Source: a virus. From it: DNA of 22,202 nt. Positions 1 through 20,029 of the stretch are shown piece after piece (the stretch's first letter is position 1; the number at the start of each line of letters is the position of its first letter). A model generated the notes under the pieces. That model worked only from the letters and a program-made list of their open reading frames with translations, had not been told where the DNA came from and did no database searches. The translations under genes were made by a program, and so were the position numbers. The DNA is taken from positions 1 to 22,202 of IMG/VR virus record IMGVR_UViG_3300021605_000014, one strand, 5' to 3'.

Positions 1-314
1 TTCGTACTGACATCAAAAGCAACGTTTTTACCTATGTGACTTTTCGCAAAAGCAACTACGTCACGGATGAATTGTTTATCCAGCAGTGGTTCACCGCCGA
101 AAAAAGCCACCAGAAAAGGTTTGTCCGCCTTAAATCCGTCACTTTTTTGATAACCTTCATAAGCGGCTTTTATGGCTTTTTTCGCAGTTTCTAACGACAT
201 GTAGTTATATTCAGACTCTTTCTTCACATAACAATAAGAGCAAGCAATATTGCAGTTTGCTGTTGTAATTAACATAACGGTTTCAGCGCGAGAAAAGCTC
301 GGAATTGAAATCAT
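1..314 (-). CDS. Radical SAM enzyme, N-terminal part (runs off left edge)
   Basis: This is a partial minus-strand gene of which the first 104 codons are visible; it is open to the window edge. The ATG at 314 follows a GAGGTG ribosome site by about 6 nt. The radical SAM iron-sulfur triad is clear: CNIACSYC gives C21, C25 and C28 (CX3CX2C). A GGEP motif at residues 73-76 is the usual SAM-contacting second strand. The spacing and the MSLETAKKAI segment look like the SPASM/anSME-type peptide-modifying group, but the C-terminal domain that would decide this lies outside the window. It starts 16 nt after the stop of a small tail-fibre-like gene and seems to belong to the same late operon. By family knowledge it should cleave S-adenosylmethionine to a 5'-deoxyadenosyl radical; the substrate is unknown. 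A protein-modifying role on a phage product is inference from position only. Confidence 0.88.
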   Translation of the reverse strand, partial: MISIPSFSRAETVMLITTANCNIACSYCYVKKESEYNYMSLETAKKAIKAAYEGYQKSDGFKADKPFLVAFFGGEPLLDKQFIRDVVAFAKSHIGKNVAFDVST

Positions 315-330
315 TGTTTTCACCTCGTTA

Positions 331-735
331 TTATTTATAAATAGCGTGTAGTTTAGCATCCATGTCATCCTGTAACTTTTTCAGCAACTGCGCGTATGTC
401 AGGTCGTAAACCCGGTCGCTGTTCACCGCGCGAGTTGCGTTCGGACATACGCAACTCGGATCGAGTTTCTCCGTTGTCACGGCGTGAGAAGCCAGCTTAT
501 CCGTCGTAACTGCAAAGTCGGCGAGATAATCAGTAATCACCCGGTCGGATTTCAGATAAAATTGATTGTAAAAGCTGATCATATTCGCAAGCGCCGCTTT
601 GAACTGTCCCTGTGTAGTCGTGGCATTCGTGAAATTGTCCGCCACCGGCTCAAACGCTGCCGCGTCCGGAGCGGCTATTTCTGCCGCGTTTACCGGTTGT
701 AACATTTGATAATTTTGTGGTTTTCGTTCTTTCAA
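331..735 (-). CDS. Small tail-fibre-like protein
   Basis: This 134-aa protein follows the J-like gene. The TTG start at 735 has a strong AAGGAGG about 5 nt upstream, whereas the next in-frame ATG (705) has no ribosome site, so TTG is preferred. The SD overlaps the TAA of the upstream gene, which suggests coupled translation. Around residues 70-92 there are two tandem copies of a short repeat (AVTTDKLA then AVTTEKLD), a pattern common in the shafts of phage tail fibres. It is followed by CVCPN and a charged, probably helical C-terminus. There is no signal peptide or membrane segment. The likely role is a small tail-tip or fibre accessory protein. Because the next gene is a radical SAM enzyme, it is also a candidate substrate, but nothing in the sequence proves that. 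Confidence 0.72.
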   Translation of the reverse strand: MKERKPQNYQMLQPVNAAEIAAPDAAAFEPVADNFTNATTTQGQFKAALANMISFYNQFYLKSDRVITDYLADFAVTTDKLASHAVTTEKLDPSCVCPNATRAVNSDRVYDLTYAQLLKKLQDDMDAKLHAIYK

Positions 736-744
736 TTTTCCTCC

Positions 745-3700
745 TTAATAACCCTGCACGAAAATATCAACACTACCGCGTGTTATTTTGCCAGCAATAT
801 CATACGTTGTGATGGTTGGGTATGGTTGGGCTTCCTTTTCGACTGTTGCATATACTGCGGTATAGCCACTGCGCTGCTCGAGGGTGTAGCTGATTGCTTT
901 GATTTTCCGATACTCCCGCGCAAGTGGGATCTGTGTGAAAGTTGTATTGCTGGTAATCAGATCGTTGAAATGTTCGGTTATATCAGGCACGTCATTGATT
1001 GCAATGAATACCCGCAGTACGCAATAAGCGTCCGGCAAAACCGCTTTTACCCGCATTTCCTCCGGTTGAGTTAGCATAATTTTCGACCGGTAAGGTATCC
1101 AAAAATCTTTAGTGTCTTTCCACATCAGAACAGCCGGGTCAACATCCCACATCAGCTTTGTTTCATCGGTTTTCCACATCGGCTCGCTGTTATAGTAAGC
1201 ATAAAAGAATTCAACATTACCGGTGTTTTGCATTGACGTTTTCGGGTTTATCCCATGCAGTGAGAACGTGCCGCCGGTTTCCGGCTGGAAATTGTCGAGA
1301 TACTCATACGGCGCGGCGTTCGGAACGTTTGCGACCAAATCAGACAATCCGTCTATTGGGTTGAGTTGCAGTTTCAGATTAATCTTTTCACCTGACCAAT
1401 GCCTGTCAATCCGATAATCAACTTCGACTACAATGTTGTCGATAGGATCATCACCCATATTGATATAGCAACATGCCGGATTTACCGAGTAGTTCCCGGC
1501 GTTATCTACTGCCTTAATCATTGCCGTATATTTGCCGTTCATCATGGCTTTGGTCTCGAATGGCGGATTAGCCACAACCCCGTCGTGCAGTCTTGTGCCG
1601 CTATCCCAGTTGTAGTTAACTCCGTTGTTACAGCGCAGTTCAAAACCCATAACGTCGTTGGGGTCGGGATAAAGATATGTCCACCAAAAGCGTTTGGAGA
1701 GGTCTGCCAGCTGCTCAACAAAGAAATCTTTTACATCCGGCGGCGGATCGTCGCTGCCGGTGAAAATCTCTACCGAATATGCCGCGTCTGATTTTTGAAA
1801 ACCGAATACTGATACTACTTTGAAACGATACCGCTTGTATGTTGTCGCATCCATGGCGCAGTCGTTGTTGGAGGTTGTGGTTATCGATTGCCACGGCGCT
1901 GTCTCGATCAACCGCCCCGCGTACAGGTCAGGTTCGCTGTACATCACATAGTAGACTTCAAACAGCGTTTGCGCCGCATTTACCGGACGTTTTCCGTTCG
2001 TATCATAAACGCCGGTGCGCCACGAACAGTAAACCAGTGTTTTAATCTCGCCCATCGGTGTTTTCCACGTCTTTTGATTGCAAGTATCGATTTTTGGCGT
2101 TTCCGGTTTCTTAGGTTTATCGGCATACTCAATAACAACCGGAATGTCTTTCGTGTCGTTGTACACGTCAGCGATATACTCAATGCCGGTAATTTTAGCC
2201 ATTAAATCTTCAGTTCGCGCAATTCCAGTTACTCTGAATGGTTTGCAATTCGTTCCGTTTTTTACACCCAGAGCAAACGTCGCAAACATGCCGTAATCCG
2301 GTCGCGCATAGTTGTATAGCTGAATAACATTCGTTGTTTCAGTCTTTGCCGCCGTCCATTCTTCCAGATGCAGGTTGCCGCCGCTTTTAAGGCGAATCTG
2401 ATATGTTTTACCGACACCGAAAGCAACCGTCCTGTCCAAAGTAATACTATTAACGTCGGAGCTGACAATCCTGCCGCCCTCACCCCATTGGGTAACATCG
2501 TGTTGCACCAGCACCACGTCGCCTACCGAACAGGCGATGCACTCAGCGGAAATCACAAACTCCGCTGTCCGGCGAATGTATCTGTTCGCTTTGATGTAGT
2601 AAGCGGCGTGCTTGTAGGCTTGCTCATAGTCTGTGCAACCCATCAACGTTACCTGCTCGTGTTTCGGCTGTTGTAAATCATAGTCCTTGTCGTAACAAAT
2701 CAACGTCGCCCGGTCATAGTTCCGATCTTTGGGATAATAGGTAACTTCAACAGCGTTCGCCCGGTTGTGGGTTGGCGTGAACTGTTCTTTGAAGCTGTCC
2801 AAAACAATGTTGCCAACGCTGAATAATTGTGTCGGTTGCAAGTCCGGCGAATCAAACATGCAGGTATAATTAGAGCCTTTCAGAAACACTTTGCCGCGCC
2901 CGATTGTTTCCGGATATTGCAAGGCTTGCATCATTCCGCAAGCTGTATCGAGAATGAAATTGAAGTCATACCGGTTTGTTTCGCAAAAGTCCGCCCACGC
3001 TTGAAACGCGTCGAAATCAATACGCTCTTTAGAGACACCATACACTTCAAACGTTCCGTCATATTCCCGGGCATAGTGCAGCATATCGTATGCCGCCCAC
3101 GCGGGGTTGGTTGCCAATGGTCGTACATATTTAACGCCGTTCCAGACAAGCACCGTTTTGCGTTCCTGCGCCCACGTTATCCTTGGCGTGCCGCCAGATA
3201 GTTGCGACGTTGCCAGTGCCTTAATGCCGATTAAACCAACGTTGTTATATTGGAAATCGTCAGCGTAAACACTGGTGATATAACTCCAAGCAGCTTTTGA
3301 AAAGTGCTTGTTGTCATCACCGCCGCCGGTTTTAACGATTGTTATCGTGTAGGACTTGCCGCGTTCCAGAGGATATTGCCACTCGCGGAAAATCGGACTG
3401 CGACTGGCGCTGGAAACGCTCACGTTCGCTAGCAACGTTTCCAAGCCACCATCCGGTCGGGCGTATATCGAAAACGACGCGCCATTCTCTACCAATCCGC
3501 TACCGTCATCTTTTACGCCGTACAGTCCTTCAGGAAAAGCAATCGTCACCCGCACTCCGTCCTGTGCGGAATCCTTCATCTTCATTAACACCCGGTCATT
3601 CAGTTTCAATTCCCGACCAACAGAAACGTCTGAATATGTGTCGCCAAAATCCGTAATAATCGGTTGGTTGTTAGTACCCAATCGTTTTGAAACGTTAATC

Positions 3701-4317
3701 TCATAAAAATAATCGACCGGCTGGTCGTTTAACTTGATCTCGCCAATATCGTCAAGAACACCCTCGCCGCAGCACAGTAGCATGTGAAGATATTGTTTAT
3801 CACCGTCAGAGATAACGTACTGCCCGATAACTTGTCCGCAGGTGCGCATCCGCCCGAAAGTAACCGGAATCGGAAACCCTTGGACGTTGCTATTGTTTTT
3901 CCGATCCCAACTGTAAGTTTGTGATTCGGAAGCTCCGCTACCGCCCCCGCCGCCCGGTTGCTCTACCCAGTACGCGCTGATGAGATAATTGGCGGCGGCA
4001 ACTCCTGCCATAATTGCTAACGCAGAAACCCATTGGAGACCAGGAATAAGCATACAAGCCGCGCCAACGACACCTAACGCTTGTTGCGCTAGTCCCGCCC
4101 AGTCATTACCATTCCAGCCGTGTCCAACCATTGGCACGATCGCGCACCAGTCGCCTTCCTGAACGATATATTCACCGTCGACAACGGCGCCGTTGGCAAT
4201 ATAGTGAAACTCACCCTCCGGCGCATATTCACAAAGCTTTTTATCTGCCGGAATATCGATTATTTCTCTGCCGTCAGAGTTATTAAACGGATTTTTGACA
4301 AGCGTTAGTTTTGCCAT
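745..4317 (-). CDS. Tail tip/host specificity protein J-like, with gpI-like N-terminus
   Basis: This 1190-aa protein is the central tail hub and receptor-binding tip of a lambda-type siphophage tail. The ATG at 4317 has GGAAGG about 10 nt upstream and is preferred over a TTG at 4344. Residues 1-72 look like the small beta-rich start of lambda gpI-type tail assembly proteins. Residues 74-109 are strongly hydrophobic and alanine/glycine rich. A glycine-serine linker sits near residue 122, and from there the protein reads as gpJ. Typical gpJ signals include FPIPVTFGRMR followed by a long hub region with aromatic WAAYDMLHYAR and VYGVSKERIDFDAFQAWADF blocks. The C-terminal third has fibronectin-like strands. 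Position after the K, L and M homologues fits the lambda order M-L-K-I-J. A separate gpI gene is absent, so a fused I-J is inferred. Confidence 0.9.
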   Translation of the reverse strand: MAKLTLVKNPFNNSDGREIIDIPADKKLCEYAPEGEFHYIANGAVVDGEYIVQEGDWCAIVPMVGHGWNGNDWAGLAQQALGVVGAACMLIPGLQWVSALAIMAGVAAANYLISAYWVEQPGGGGGSGASESQTYSWDRKNNSNVQGFPIPVTFGRMRTCGQVIGQYVISDGDKQYLHMLLCCGEGVLDDIGEIKLNDQPVDYFYEINVSKRLGTNNQPIITDFGDTYSDVSVGRELKLNDRVLMKMKDSAQDGVRVTIAFPEGLYGVKDDGSGLVENGASFSIYARPDGGLETLLANVSVSSASRSPIFREWQYPLERGKSYTITIVKTGGGDDNKHFSKAAWSYITSVYADDFQYNNVGLIGIKALATSQLSGGTPRITWAQERKTVLVWNGVKYVRPLATNPAWAAYDMLHYAREYDGTFEVYGVSKERIDFDAFQAWADFCETNRYDFNFILDTACGMMQALQYPETIGRGKVFLKGSNYTCMFDSPDLQPTQLFSVGNIVLDSFKEQFTPTHNRANAVEVTYYPKDRNYDRATLICYDKDYDLQQPKHEQVTLMGCTDYEQAYKHAAYYIKANRYIRRTAEFVISAECIACSVGDVVLVQHDVTQWGEGGRIVSSDVNSITLDRTVAFGVGKTYQIRLKSGGNLHLEEWTAAKTETTNVIQLYNYARPDYGMFATFALGVKNGTNCKPFRVTGIARTEDLMAKITGIEYIADVYNDTKDIPVVIEYADKPKKPETPKIDTCNQKTWKTPMGEIKTLVYCSWRTGVYDTNGKRPVNAAQTLFEVYYVMYSEPDLYAGRLIETAPWQSITTTSNNDCAMDATTYKRYRFKVVSVFGFQKSDAAYSVEIFTGSDDPPPDVKDFFVEQLADLSKRFWWTYLYPDPNDVMGFELRCNNGVNYNWDSGTRLHDGVVANPPFETKAMMNGKYTAMIKAVDNAGNYSVNPACCYINMGDDPIDNIVVEVDYRIDRHWSGEKINLKLQLNPIDGLSDLVANVPNAAPYEYLDNFQPETGGTFSLHGINPKTSMQNTGNVEFFYAYYNSEPMWKTDETKLMWDVDPAVLMWKDTKDFWIPYRSKIMLTQPEEMRVKAVLPDAYCVLRVFIAINDVPDITEHFNDLITSNTTFTQIPLAREYRKIKAISYTLEQRSGYTAVYATVEKEAQPYPTITTYDIAGKITRGSVDIFVQGY

Positions 4318-4691
4318 GTATAAAACCCTTCCACTTTTCGGCAAGCAATTGACCCGCCAATGCGTTCGATCGCTACGCCGATATTCTCACGGGCGTGAAT
4401 AAACATCCCGTGACCGATATATACACCGACATGATTGCACAAATCGCCGTTTCTGAAAGTGATCAGACACGGAACAGGTTTGTCGTCGACACGCCGCCAG
4501 TTTTTTCGATTGTAGTCGATAAGTTTGTTTATATCAGTGTCCGTTGCACAGTTTTCTAAATATTCCGGCAGCTCGATGCTGTAGCGGCTGAAAACTTCCT
4601 TGACCAGTCCCCAGCAATCCAGTCCGTTTTTACTGCGTCCGTATTTCGCAAACGGCACGCCAATCAAATCGCTAAAATTAGCCGTCACCAT
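4305..4691 (-). CDS. NlpC/P60 tail peptidase (lambda gpK-like)
   Basis: This 128-aa cysteine peptidase belongs to the NlpC/P60 family, lambda gpK position. The ATG at 4691 has AGGGAGTG just upstream; it overlaps the end of the L-like gene by 14 nt. The catalytic cysteine lies in GLDCWGLV (C26), the histidine in NHVGVYIGH (H87), and a third polar residue is H99 in FIHA. The fold starts immediately at the N-terminus, so the N-terminal JAB/Mov34 domain of lambda gpK is missing and only the NlpC half is present. It probably cuts peptidoglycan peptide stems during DNA entry or assists tail-tip assembly. It overlaps the start of the J-like gene by 13 nt, consistent with coupled translation. Confidence 0.9.
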   Translation of the reverse strand: MVTANFSDLIGVPFAKYGRSKNGLDCWGLVKEVFSRYSIELPEYLENCATDTDINKLIDYNRKNWRRVDDKPVPCLITFRNGDLCNHVGVYIGHGMFIHARENIGVAIERIGGSIACRKVEGFYTWQN

Positions 4692-9562: not shown

Positions 9563-10066
9563 TCAGCGCGTCAAGCCAACACCACCCATAGAAACTCCGC
9601 TGAACGTTCCGTCCTTGACACACTGCCAAACCCTGTCGCTGGCGATAATGCCGATAAGCCATGTGCCTTTTCTGATGATCTGTTCATTGACAATCACATC
9701 AACCGGCATAATGTAGTTCTCCACAATATCGCCGAGTGTTTTGTCCCAGACGGCGTGCTGTATGCCCAAACCGATAGCGTTACCGGCTTCTAATTGCCGC
9801 TTGTATTCAGAGACATCCACAGCCGACAGCAAATCGGTAACGTCAACCTCGACATCGCCGCCAGTCTGAATGGTTTTGTACAGTTTGGCAATTATTCTCA
9901 GCGCCATGTCGCCGACGACAACCTGTTTTTGCAAACTCCTGGTGAACTCATGGCAGGATTTTTCAATTTCCTCGGCAGTCATCCAGTCATCATGCGCATC
10001 CCTGACGTTCGGCTCGTAGACGACGCACAGCACATATTGCTTATCGGCGTTTTTTTGAATAATCAT
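9563..10066 (-). CDS. XkdF-type phage serine protease, displaced from the head genes
   Basis: This 167-aa protein matches the XkdF family (putative head maturation serine protease, Peptidase_S78_2 type). The start ATG at 10066 has AGGAG about 9 nt upstream. The family signature opens with VVYEPNVRDAHDDWMTAEEI (residues 15-34) and closes with KGTWLIGI then FSGVSMGG (133-162). H104 in IQHAVWD and S159 are the likely catalytic pair. About 40 extra residues (near 50-95) separate the two halves compared with the short linker I expect in the family. XkdF normally lies between portal and major capsid; here it lies between tail tube and chaperone genes, more than 6 kb from the capsid gene. It would cleave scaffold and head proteins during maturation. 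Alternatively it has been reused as a tail component. Confidence 0.8.
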   Translation of the reverse strand: MIIQKNADKQYVLCVVYEPNVRDAHDDWMTAEEIEKSCHEFTRSLQKQVVVGDMALRIIAKLYKTIQTGGDVEVDVTDLLSAVDVSEYKRQLEAGNAIGLGIQHAVWDKTLGDIVENYIMPVDVIVNEQIIRKGTWLIGIIASDRVWQCVKDGTFSGVSMGGVGLTR

Positions 10067-10173: not shown

Positions 10174-10518
10174 ATGACTAATTCTGAAAAGATATTGCGT
10201 TTTCTAAACAGCGACCCCGATAAATACTGGTCAAACGACGAACTTAACACAAAATTCCCAAAATTATCTCCGGAAGAAATAGAAGTGTGTGTCAAGCGGC
10301 TCCAGCACAAAGAACTGATAGCCTTTCACGCCTTCTTTGGTGGATTTACTGTAAGAACGAACAATAGCGGGCTGTTCTATTTCGAGGATGATGCCTCTGA
10401 AAAATCCAAAAAGTGGGCGGAACGTCGTTGGGGATTAACACAACTGCTACTTTCAAATTTTGCTTCCGGCTTAATCGGTTTAGGCGCAGGATACTTGTTG
10501 TTTTACCTTACTCATTGA
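10174..10518 (+). CDS. Winged-helix-like protein with C-terminal membrane anchor (moron candidate)
   Basis: This 114-aa protein is on the strand opposite to the late genes. The ATG at 10174 follows AGGTGG. Residues 1-60 (SEKILRFLNSDPDKYWSNDE, then LSPEEIEVCVKRLQHKELI) read as a small winged-helix domain with a recognition-type helix and wing. A charged linker follows, and residues about 90-112 form one transmembrane helix ending at the C-terminus. It has its own extended -10 promoter. Proteins of this architecture occur in prophages, but I do not recognise a named family. It could be a lysogenically expressed moron, for example a membrane-tethered exclusion or regulatory factor; that role is inference. 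It converges with a 34-codon minus-strand gene, overlapping it by 7 nt. Confidence 0.75.
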   Translation: MTNSEKILRFLNSDPDKYWSNDELNTKFPKLSPEEIEVCVKRLQHKELIAFHAFFGGFTVRTNNSGLFYFEDDASEKSKKWAERRWGLTQLLLSNFASGLIGLGAGYLLFYLTH

Positions 10519-16617: not shown

Positions 16618-17733
16618 TTAACGCCCTCCCTTTTGTTCTTGCTTGTACTTCTCGTACAAAGCCGGGTTGTTTTTCCAGACCTCAGTGCGTGCTGTCGCCT
16701 TGGTCAGCTTCGGGTTGGACTTAACAAGCTCCTCAGCTTTAACGTCAGCCTCAGCGAGCGCCGAACCGACCACGCCGGAACGCCCCGAACCGGACTCTTT
16801 GAAGAATTGCGAGTTTGCAGCTACTGCCGCATTTGCCACCATGGTCTTTAACAGATTTTCAAAATCCGTCTCCGGCATTACCGCTTTTGCGCTTTTGAGC
16901 ATCTTCACCATTTCAACAGGATCACCGACAAGTCCCAGCTCGGTTACTTTGTTCAGCAAAACTGCATCGGTTTGGTCGCCAACCATCTTAGCGATGTCTG
17001 CCTGTGCTTTGCTGATGGTCTCGCCTTGCGAGGTAATAGTTGCGCCTTGGGTAGCAATGGTCTCGCCTTGGGTCTTGATGATTGCGTCTTTGACCTCAAT
17101 AGCTTTAGCTACTTCAACCATCACTTCATCTTGGATTGATTTTTTCAGGGCTTGTTTTTCAATGTCAGTCATGTCTTCCTCCTTGTTAATTATGTTTTTT
17201 GATGGGTCAGTATCTTTTTCAGGTTCCGGGTCAGTGTCGGCTATTCCCAACACTTTTTTGAGTTGCTCGAACGCTGTCCTTAGTAATGACTCAGTGTCAG
17301 CGCTCAATTTCTTACCTGCCTTTTCAACAAGCACGTCCGCGCTCAGAATAGATTGCTGCAAATCGTTTATTTCATGCGCCATTTGCTGTTGCTTGAAAGG
17401 TCTGTCCGATAATGCCAGTTCAATTAAAGAATTCTTGAAAGCTGTGACAAGCTCGTTTACTTTGTCATCAACAACCTTACGCCGCTCGGGCGTAATTACC
17501 GGCGGCGCATTGCTTTCCATAGCCGCGTTTTCATTGATGGCGTTGTCCGTAGCGTTTCGCCCCATCAACCAGTCAATAAAGGAACTACGCAAGGGATTTT
17601 CATCCGGGGTTTCTCCTTTTTTCACTTTTTCACCTCCTTTCTTTGCAGATTTCATAACAATAAAGTTCCGTTTGTTTGCCGGATCGTTAACTAATGACAC
17701 CTCGTTGATTTGAACATCGTACAGTTCAGCCAT
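16618..17733 (-). CDS. Scaffold-like protein with XkdF-type N-terminus but no protease domain
   Basis: This 371-aa protein lies where XkdF and scaffold genes normally lie. Its ATG shares an A with the portal stop (TAATG). Residues 1-34 (DVQINEVSLVNDPANKRNF) are the short leader that precedes the protease domain in many XkdF/scaffold proteins, yet the catalytic VVYEPxxxDAHxD region is absent. The rest is highly charged and helical. A block near residues 218-248 has a repeated TQGETI/TQGATI/SQGETI pattern with a 42-bp near-repeat, typical of coiled coil. The C-terminus ends NNPALYEKYKQEQKGG, common in phage capsid scaffolds. The missing protease domain seems to be the separate gene at 9563-10066. 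Confidence 0.75.
   Translation of the reverse strand: MAELYDVQINEVSLVNDPANKRNFIVMKSAKKGGEKVKKGETPDENPLRSSFIDWLMGRNATDNAINENAAMESNAPPVITPERRKVVDDKVNELVTAFKNSLIELALSDRPFKQQQMAHEINDLQQSILSADVLVEKAGKKLSADTESLLRTAFEQLKKVLGIADTDPEPEKDTDPSKNIINKEEDMTDIEKQALKKSIQDEVMVEVAKAIEVKDAIIKTQGETIATQGATITSQGETISKAQADIAKMVGDQTDAVLLNKVTELGLVGDPVEMVKMLKSAKAVMPETDFENLLKTMVANAAVAANSQFFKESGSGRSGVVGSALAEADVKAEELVKSNPKLTKATARTEVWKNNPALYEKYKQEQKGGR
17012..17082. repeat. Coiled-coil repeat in scaffold gene
   Basis: GGTCTCGCCTTG occurs at 17017-17028 and again at 17059-17070, 42 bp (two heptads) apart, with a diverged copy between them. It encodes the repeated TQGETI-type units of the scaffold-like protein. Confidence 0.75.
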
Positions 17734-19114
17734 TATCCGCTACCTCCTAATCCTTTACCGAGATTGAACATTTTCGCTATCTCCTTGCGCTGTTCACCGT
17801 CAAGGTTCTCGATCGCGCCCTGAATATGCTTTTCCAAATCCGCGTCGTCTTCGGGCTGCTCACTGGCATCTGCTGCTTCTTTGGGTATTGGCGGCAGATT
17901 GCCAACGTCCCGCAAATGCGCCTCAAGCTCTCTGTCCGGTGTCAGCATCCCGGCATCGGTCAGCGTTTTGACGTATGTCGACAAATCTCTCAGGTTCGGA
18001 TTCTCAACATCGCCGTGCTTGATGCATGGGAACGGATAACCAACGCCGTTCAGGCGCATCAAAGTTGGAATCAGCTTTCTGTTCAACTCCGTTTCGATAA
18101 TGTCCAGTATTGCGCCGAGCGCATAGCTAAACATCGTCGTCTTATCGCTGGACAGCGCAAACGAACCAACGTTCGACTGTCCAAGCATTATGAAGTCCGC
18201 CAACACGCTCATGAGAATGCGTTTGTCCCAGCGTTCAATAATCAGCGTGGTATCAAACATTCTCGAACCACCGGTAGACAACAGCGACAGTTTAAACCCG
18301 GTTGGATTACCCTGTTCGTCAAGTTCTGCCGGAATAATACATCCGGCTGTTTCGTCGTTTCGTATTTGCGACAGGTACGCTTCAAGATGCTCGAACAAAG
18401 CTACCTGACCGCTAGTTAAATCGTCTGCTTCCAGCAACTTTGGCGGCACTTGAATTACCGGCAACCCTGCCAAATCGCGCTCACAGCCAATGCCCTCAAT
18501 CTCTTCGATGTTCTTCTTGAAGACGTAACTTCTATACGCGTTTCTCAAAAAACTTCTGCCTTCCGGATTATCGCGGTTTGGCTCGGTTTTGAAATGCAAG
18601 CACTTTTCATAAGGTATTTCCAGCATCTCACCCTGCGGAATTGTTAACTGACATACAGCTAATATCTTGTCGCGCTCTTCTAACTCGTCAAACACCCAGC
18701 GCCAGATTGTGTCCTGTGACCGTATACCAATCTTCCTTATCCCGATTTTGCCGTCGTTAAACTTGCTTCCTTCCGAAAACCGCCGCCGCCTGAACACCAT
18801 CTCCATGATGCTGTAACCGTATTCGATCATCGTGCAAGCCTCGGCTATCACATCGTCGAAACTGTTGACGGCATCCGAAAATAAACATTCCTCGACAAAA
18901 GAGGCATTAGCTACGTCGCCAGCATCTTCACTAGCAGGCTGCACCGACCATTTTGCATTACGGATAAGCATCTTCATGCAAAACAGCAACGCCCCAATCG
19001 TAGCGTCGTTGTCCTTCATTTCGCGATACTTGAGCATCCCCTGCCTGCCGACAAGCTCCTGCTGCCACTCGTCTCGAATAACATGTGTTATCGCCGGGGC
19101 TTTTTTATCCCCGA
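17733..19114 (-). CDS. Portal protein, exon 2 (DUF935-like)
   Basis: This is the main portal coding part. The uninterrupted reading frame with a normal ATG begins at 19037, but clear portal sequence continues upstream in the same frame: GDKKAPAITHVIRDEWQQEL to a point near 19114, beyond which a TAG (19135-19137) blocks the frame. No ribosome site precedes the 19037 ATG. Portal features: KYREMKDNDATIGALLFCMK, then EYGYSIMEMVFRRRR, PEGRSFLRNAYRSYVFKK and AGLPVIQVPP. Joined to exon 1 at 19340-19406 it gives about 482 codons, a normal portal length. The portal dodecamer is the DNA entry and exit vertex. The gene is cut by a short RNA element; precise 3' junction is uncertain (19115/19114 or 19124/19123 both keep frame). 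Confidence 0.88.
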
Positions 19115-19339: not shown

Positions 19340-19406
19340 ACCCACCGTATTGCCTGAAACCGCCTCTGCCGGTCTGACTTAAAAACGTTTTTTTGTCACT
19401 AATCAT
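19340..19406 (-). CDS. Portal protein, exon 1
   Basis: ATG at 19406 overlaps the stop of the HNH gene and has GGAGGTG about 9 nt upstream, inside the last HNH codons. It encodes 22 codons plus one base: MISDKKTFLSQTGRGGFRQY followed by GG. Unspliced, it would end shortly after at a TAG within the intron, giving a useless peptide of about 29 aa. The phase (one base of the next codon) fits exon 2 entry at codon position two, restoring an open frame of 1449 nt. The motif GRGGFRQYG is repeated with synonymous differences at the N-terminus of the upstream HNH gene. Confidence 0.72.
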
Positions 19407-20029
19407 GCACTCGCCCACCTCCAGACGTAACCTTTGTAACTTTTTATTTTTCCGTTGCAACACTTCCTGATGGTTTTCACATTTATGCCGTTTTCTTGTG
19501 CTGCCCGTTTTGAATAATCGTAATGTTTAACGACTTCTCCAGACAAATCAAGCTGGGTTATAGGTCTTGCCCTTGAATTTCCAGCGCCTGCCATTCTTTT
19601 GGAATGTCTTTTCCTAAGCTCGAAAGTGTTGGCTGAAGCATTCATTTTTAGCATGTGTTCAATAGTTGGATTGTGACCTAGAACACGATTTCTATGTATT
19701 GCTTGTTCTTTTGAAGTAGCCCATTCTAGGTTGCTAACATCATTGTTCGCTCTGTCCCCGTCTTTGTGGTTCACTGTCGGCTTGTTCTCAGGATTAGGCA
19801 CAAAAGCGAAAGCTACAAGACGCGCAACACTCCTGTATAATTTTATCCCTTTGTTGCTTAAACCAACCACTTTATACCCATACTTACATTGGGGAATTAA
19901 TAATTTATTGCGTTTCTCGCTCCAAACTTCCCCGACACTATTGACCGAGTACCCTTCTACGCCGAATTGCCGGAAGCCCCCGCGGCCAATAGCGGTAGTC
20001 ATCAACTTACGTCTGTCTGTTTCTGCCAC
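19403..20029 (-). CDS. NUMOD4-HNH-NUMOD1 homing endonuclease with portal-like N-terminus
   Basis: This 208-aa protein starts with GTG at 20029, with GGAGG 7 nt upstream inside the end of the terminase gene. Residues about 22-70 are a NUMOD4 domain (VEGYSVNSVGEVWS). The HNH site follows with NHKDGDRANNDVSNLEWAT: H88, N95/N96 and N100. Residues about 147-206 are a NUMOD1 DNA-binding domain (TQLDLSGEVVKHYDYSKRAA ... GYVWRW). The first 23 residues are not part of the endonuclease: they include GRGGFRQFG, which recurs at the start of portal exon 1. The gene has thus captured a portal 5' end, or was inserted into one. It probably cuts intronless/insertless portal alleles to spread. Confidence 0.9.
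   Translation of the reverse strand: MAETDRRKLMTTAIGRGGFRQFGVEGYSVNSVGEVWSEKRNKLLIPQCKYGYKVVGLSNKGIKLYRSVARLVAFAFVPNPENKPTVNHKDGDRANNDVSNLEWATSKEQAIHRNRVLGHNPTIEHMLKMNASANTFELRKRHSKRMAGAGNSRARPITQLDLSGEVVKHYDYSKRAAQENGINVKTIRKCCNGKIKSYKGYVWRWASA

Follow-up and report, generated by a model that had tools for sequence, protein, structure and literature searches.

The locus analysed here raises the question of what a radical SAM enzyme does at the end of a phage late operon, directly behind the gene of a small tail-fibre-like protein, and whether that protein or another part of the tail is its target. The window, that is, the whole stretch of DNA examined, comprises all 22,202 bases of an IMG/VR record, so that the sequence goes no further to the left, and carries a tailed-phage late operon, encoded on the minus strand and read leftwards. 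The operon includes the genes of the terminase small and large subunits, an HNH protein, a Mu-type portal, the capsid and the major tail proteins, as well as those of the tape measure, minor tail proteins, an NlpC/P60 protein and J. The HNH endonuclease gene lies at 19403–20029, between the terminase large subunit and the portal. Two separate genes (9563–10066 and 16618–17733) match pieces of a single prohead-protease profile (phrog_3017), and one of these genes immediately precedes those of the tail chaperone and the tape measure. The minus-strand operon is broken by a plus-strand ORF of 114 aa with a C-terminal hydrophobic stretch (10174–10518), a possible moron.

Gene order and motifs at the left end of the window

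The central tail protein J (host specificity) is encoded at 745–4344 on the minus strand (phrog_31, E 2.5e-107; FNIII-A_GpJ, 2.2e-11), and past its end the operon continues on the same strand with the gene of a 134-aa protein (331–735, stop codon included, TTG start) and a radical SAM gene, which starts at 314 and is cut by the contig end, leaving its first 104 codons (3–314). A Shine-Dalgarno-like site could be read directly upstream of both genes: AAGGAGG at 740–746, overlapping the stop codon of J, and GAGGTG at 321–326, within the 16-nt gap (330–315) and beginning 12 nt ahead of the enzyme's ATG (314–312). The translated enzyme contains CX3CX2C (C21, C25 and C28; 231–254), the [4Fe-4S]/SAM site, and a GGEP motif at residues 73–76 (87–98), and it belongs to the superfamily according to Pfam Radical_SAM (PF04055; 34.5 bits against a cut-off of 29.5, E 2.9e-8). 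The radical SAM identity and the 16-nt distance from a small gene with a CVCPN site, both claimed in an earlier note on this DNA, were thus borne out.

The 134-aa protein has exactly two cysteines, 95 and 97, in the sequence SCVCPN (CVCPN, residues 95–99, 439–453). As the earlier note had proposed, it can be called tail-fibre-like, because it weakly matches PHROG profiles (phrog_892, tail fibre, with E 3.4e-4, and phrog_2952 with E 9.7e-4), its AVTTDKLASHAVTTEKLD repeats resemble those of a fibre-like protein in another viral locus (L002), and its gene follows J. When IMG/VR was scanned with this protein alone, only L002, fibre-like and with similar shaft repeats, was matched. Single-protein scans of IMG/VR with the window enzyme or J returned no close relatives, and scanning for exact peptides of the window proteins yielded next to nothing.

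The top NCBIfam matches of the enzyme were the PapB ranthipeptide maturase (6.5e-16), a nif11-type maturase, QhpD and CcpM, and the best solved-structure match of its sequence was PDB 5wgg (4.2e-6), which we take to be CteB, in agreement with the entry title. Its match to the QueE-like phrog_2076 was far weaker (E 4.2e-5, compared with 7.7e-12 for phrog_1802 and 6.5e-16 for PapB). On these profile matches, the enzyme is likened to thioether-forming peptide maturases (PapB, CteB) and not to QueE. The phrog_1802 match is not specific because this profile matches all 14 control genomes, and, as it also matches 376 of the 380 Negativicutes genomes, it was rejected as a marker. The ubiquity of phrog_1802-like enzymes could nevertheless favour the view that the gene is a moron or a metabolic gene, a host-derived radical SAM of the QueE/nucleotide-enzyme kind that follows the tail genes by chance, and in one locus (L038) an unrelated radical SAM gene on the opposite strand does come after J, for which reason it was left out as a case. 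Co-orientation and the 16-nt gap argue against this view, as does the strength of the PapB match relative to the QueE-like one. The earlier note had allowed for a host gene beside an attachment site or a queuosine/nucleotide enzyme; the gene was found inside the late operon, co-oriented with it and 16 nt after a tail gene, and its phrog_2076 match falls far behind that to PapB.

Radical SAM genes and cysteine-run tail tips in other phages

Negativicutes prophages supplied the best relatives of J (36 genome loci altogether; 45 of the 380 genomes of the class), so the host of the window phage is probably a Negativicute. Among 48 genomic regions examined, six prophages carry the enzyme after J, and the nearest Negativicutes kin share the layout of the window, a tip gene followed after 16–22 nt by the enzyme. 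In L417 the tip ends in SCFSCECNCACDC (CECNCACDC) and the enzyme follows after 16 nt, while in L412, L413 and L416 the tip ends in DPCSCSCCNG and the enzyme starts about 22 nt further on. The order in L320 (= L438) is a fibre ending in NCNCNCDCDCTCDCSGGE, a partner protein and the enzyme; past this enzyme, at 16993–18516, there is an array of ORFs of about 50–97 aa in alternating orientation, which end mostly in CGY or AYGY, resemble an invertible tip-switching cassette and are followed by an integrase-like gene. Closely spaced Cys-repeat tails were also seen in the phage kin L439–L444 and L446, and L007 has tail genes together with a GSCxGSC tail protein. Three fecal 'phage' records (L003–L005) were left out of the counts, since their gene content looks bacterial.

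The association between enzyme and tail was counted in loci sampled through J only, a procedure blind to both features. It gave 171 loci, of which 76 with less than 4 kb after J and 18 duplicates were dropped. The 77 distinct loci kept comprised nine with the enzyme and a CXCXC tail, one with the enzyme only, none with the tail only and 67 with neither (Fisher 6e-11; 4e-9 when three near-identical prophages were merged). This association speaks further against a moron or metabolic gene placed after the tail genes by chance, a reading that we regard as very improbable. The single exception is L310 (= L437), also one of the six prophages, whose radical SAM gene (17393–18583) comes after a Gly-rich fibre end without Cys, GSSGEGSGGEGSGGE.

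A scan of viral contigs for DNA patterns possibly coding for CNCNCNC gave at least 120 loci. Among the matches listed, a radical SAM gene was present in 44 of the 59 loci where the pattern was C-terminal in an ORF, in one of the eight where it was internal and in none of the 53 where it lay outside an ORF. Among these matches, 13 of the 15 enzyme-less C-terminal loci had less than 2.5 kb of DNA downstream, and the remaining two, with more room, were ORFs of 50–61 aa, probably matched by chance. In a search made through enzymes (A5), a CXCXC tail lay on the same strand within 5 kb in 50 of 66 loci, and 50 of the 648 near ORFs had a Cys tail, compared with three of the 253 far ORFs; these counts are illustrative and not independent, because the search started from three enzymes that the Cys-pattern scan had yielded, and because the set includes near-identical phages. 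A scan with the clade of the window enzyme (A6) gave a Cys-rich (31–86 Cys) or ...DPCSCSCCNG tail protein upstream in all eight loci, the seed being enzymes with known Cys neighbours, two of the loci (L440 and L441) being near-identical and L445 being near kin of L413.

Enzyme–tip pairs also occur outside the Negativicutes relatives. Alignment of J with that of nickie-type phages led to 80 loci, and in two of them a radical SAM/SPASM gene follows J on the same strand beside fibre genes with Cys runs: the fibre of L087 ends in ...YNCNCNCNCNCTS about 10 nt ahead of the enzyme, and that of L086 contains NCNCVCQCPCCC and then a Hint-like domain. In the cultured Achromobacter phages JWF and 2-1 the order is a fibre (NCNCDC...SC and Hint), a partner and the enzyme. 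Thus, the statement of the earlier note that such enzymes are rare in phage late operons was too strong, as the arrangement recurs in other phages. Radical SAM genes annotated in phages without a function comprise phrog_1802, those of JWF (gp30) and 2-1, and that of Campylobacter phage CP220, in which no Cys run was found in the enzyme neighbours examined. The enzymes of JWF and 2-1 resemble that of the window in their position, two genes past a fibre with a Cys run before a Hint domain, but they belong to another fork of the tree. A CFPAG sequence and a Hint (intein-like) domain directly after the fibre Cys run were noted in L098 (5003–6454), L099 (5135–6577) and L086 (16199–17374 and 18067–19254), the assignment being a Pfam match in L098 and made by eye in L099 and L086; if a domain so placed cleaved itself off, the mature protein would end in the Cys run.

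The Cys runs might instead be metal-binding or disulfide-bonded fibre tips, the enzyme altering the tail in some other way, for example by epimerising or cross-linking non-Cys residues. In the loci found through the enzyme only, the X of the CXC repeats varied (N 46, Q 45, A 27, E 19 and D 12), therefore Cys alternation or spacing alone is kept; Asn was rejected as an obligatory partner of Cys on this ground. Such variation would suit metal or disulfide tips, and so would the Cys-free, Gly-rich fibre end adjoining the enzyme in L310. On the other hand, Cys-run tails were found in none of the 67 enzyme-less J-sampled loci, and the closest solved fold and the closest models are thioether-forming maturases. 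We therefore hold metal or disulfide tips to be an improbable explanation.

Likeness of the phage enzymes to known maturases

In a tree of 48 enzymes (96 columns), the window enzyme grouped with those of L412/L413/L417 and L007, with the A-type enzymes and with bacterial enzymes sharing the same fork (support 85/92, not starred), and the rows nearest to it were L007, L412 and L413 and not the JWF type. Seven cysteines after the core, in SPASM-like order, were invariant among 16 phage enzymes (A7), as were the three radical SAM cysteines and GGE, and the L417 score for SPASM (PF13186) itself came near the cut-off (19.2 of 21.5 bits). L445, one of the kin enzymes, gave an AlphaFold model (mean pLDDT 69, pTM 0.76) that matched CteB best (5why, E 4.7e-17; 5why/5wgg, E 5e-17 to 3e-16, TM 0.70–0.74), followed by TigE, ChlB and anSME. 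About 20 residues precede its first barrel strand and form no N-terminal domain, which leaves no room for an N-terminal RRE of the CteB type. The model of the larger partner family was beta-rich (pLDDT 84.7, pTM 0.81) with weak PDB matches, the best being intimin Ig-like domains (4e-4). A single partner protein common to all modules was rejected, as the partners fall into at least two unrelated families.

CteB (5wgg/5why) and PapB (NF047865) are the systems most like that of the phages: they are the best sequence and fold matches, they have CX3CX2C and a Cys-containing substrate encoded alongside, as the putative one of the phage enzymes would be, and the SPASM region of the phage kin contains seven Cys. 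Their substrates, however, are secreted peptides, while that of the phage enzyme would be a tail protein; L445 differs from CteB in lacking room for the RRE, and the NCBIfam scores stayed below the cut-offs (for PapB, 340 bits, with 58.5 for the 104 residues of the window enzyme, 158.9 for full-length L413 and 124.0 for L417). TIGR04115, the CXXX-repeat maturase, is the named family closest in sequence to the Negativicutes kin, being the best NCBIfam match of L413 (3.7e-56) and L417 (6.5e-37), and the tails of L439–L444 and L446 carry Cys repeats as well, but its cut-off of 350 bits was missed by L413 (191.2), L417 (127.8) and the window enzyme (48.4).

QhpD, a radical SAM enzyme outside the RiPPs, cross-links Cys to Asp or Glu in its target enzyme QHNDH, and the thioethers of ranthipeptide-type relatives join Cys to Thr in CteA, to Asp in freyrasin and to Asn in NxxcA, as reported in PMC8326336. 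The window enzyme matches the profile of this quinohemoprotein amine dehydrogenase maturase (TIGR03906) with 2.3e-14; the target of QhpD differs in being a metabolic enzyme. QhpD is not known to be phage-borne.

A putative maturation step of the tail tip

The recurrent pairing of such enzymes with Cys-repeat tail tips in related phages suggests that phages probably modify the host-contacting part of the virion by this chemistry. By analogy with the ranthipeptide maturases CteB and PapB, the enzyme, with SAM and its [4Fe-4S] cluster, would remove a hydrogen from a residue close to a Cys, whose sulfur would then close a thioether ring, and a stiff, protease- and oxidation-resistant tail-fibre tip would result before virion assembly, which may in turn affect adsorption. 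In general terms, we consider it somewhat better than an even bet that many tailed phages of varied lineages (among them phages of Negativicutes, other gut bacteria and Achromobacter) possess a dedicated radical SAM tail-tip module, composed of a fibre or tip ending in (CX)n or close Cys repeats, often a beta-rich partner and one to four enzymes, which installs thioether or related cross-links where the virion meets the cell, and that the window, with its single CVC, would be a minimal member.

For the window itself, the reading that we prefer, held with even confidence, is that the phage encodes a radical SAM maturase, probably of the SPASM type, which acts on a small Cys-bearing protein of the tail tip, encoded immediately ahead of it in the same late operon. 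The chances that this substrate is the 134-aa protein, with its CVC as the putative site, appear evenly balanced, given that the C-terminal half of the enzyme falls outside the contig and the single CVC of its neighbour is internal. This CVC lies 37 residues from the C-terminus, while the Cys runs of the kin are C-terminal; with CXCXC strictly required, the window itself would count as an enzyme without a tail, like the exception L310. Any CXC occurred by chance in 18 of 438 (4%) small proteins encoded after J where the enzyme was absent, therefore the CVC alone is weak evidence. Accordingly, the proposal of the earlier note stands in part: modification of a tail protein by an enzyme like the RiPP maturases gained strong comparative support as a class, while the 134-aa protein as its substrate did not.

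Since the only CVC of the neighbour is not terminal, the true substrate could lie past the contig edge: an enzyme of the same class would act on another Cys-rich tail tip left of the contig end, and the 134-aa protein would be no more than a neck or adaptor of the fibre. The Cys tip of L272 does lie downstream of the enzymes, modules often contain one to four further genes, and the end of the 134-aa protein, LTYAQLLKKLQDDMDAKLHAIYK, looks by eye like the helix preceding the Cys run in L087, L192 and L320. The nearest kin (L412, L413, L416, L417 and L439–L446), however, carry the Cys tip upstream of the enzyme, and a substrate beyond the contig end seems to us a possible but rather doubtful solution.

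If a small tip protein made from the same operon is indeed matured in this way, radical SAM cross-linking of the receptor-binding tip of a virion would be a kind of virus maturation undescribed in the literature searched; no description of phage tail proteins being matured by a radical SAM enzyme was found there, preprints and most subscription journals lying outside its coverage. It would also explain radical SAM genes that phage annotation leaves without a function, connect phage adsorption with anaerobic, SAM-dependent chemistry in a way open to testing, and add a large new set of maturases with protein-sized substrates.

Some phage loci have a more complex composition. In many phages (L222–L287, L192 and L114), a tip of 63–71 aa with an HxHxFxDDY..CxCxC end is followed by a run of three or four radical SAM genes, whose products have about 585, 370, 424 (a degenerate one) and 440 aa. 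In the Erwinia jumbo phage ChrisDB (gp187–gp183; L101, 3493–7299), two adjoining radical SAM genes occur with two small Cys-rich proteins in an arrangement like a RiPP cluster. Members of a related protein family separate the Cys tip from the radical SAM gene in L206 (5965–6597), L103 (4609–5304), L111 (4836–5552), L143 (10841–11482) and L175 (4754–5392); one of them showed a weak match to a 2OG-Fe(II) oxygenase (PF13759, E 0.0027, below the cut-off), and a second modification by hydroxylation is conceivable in these phages.
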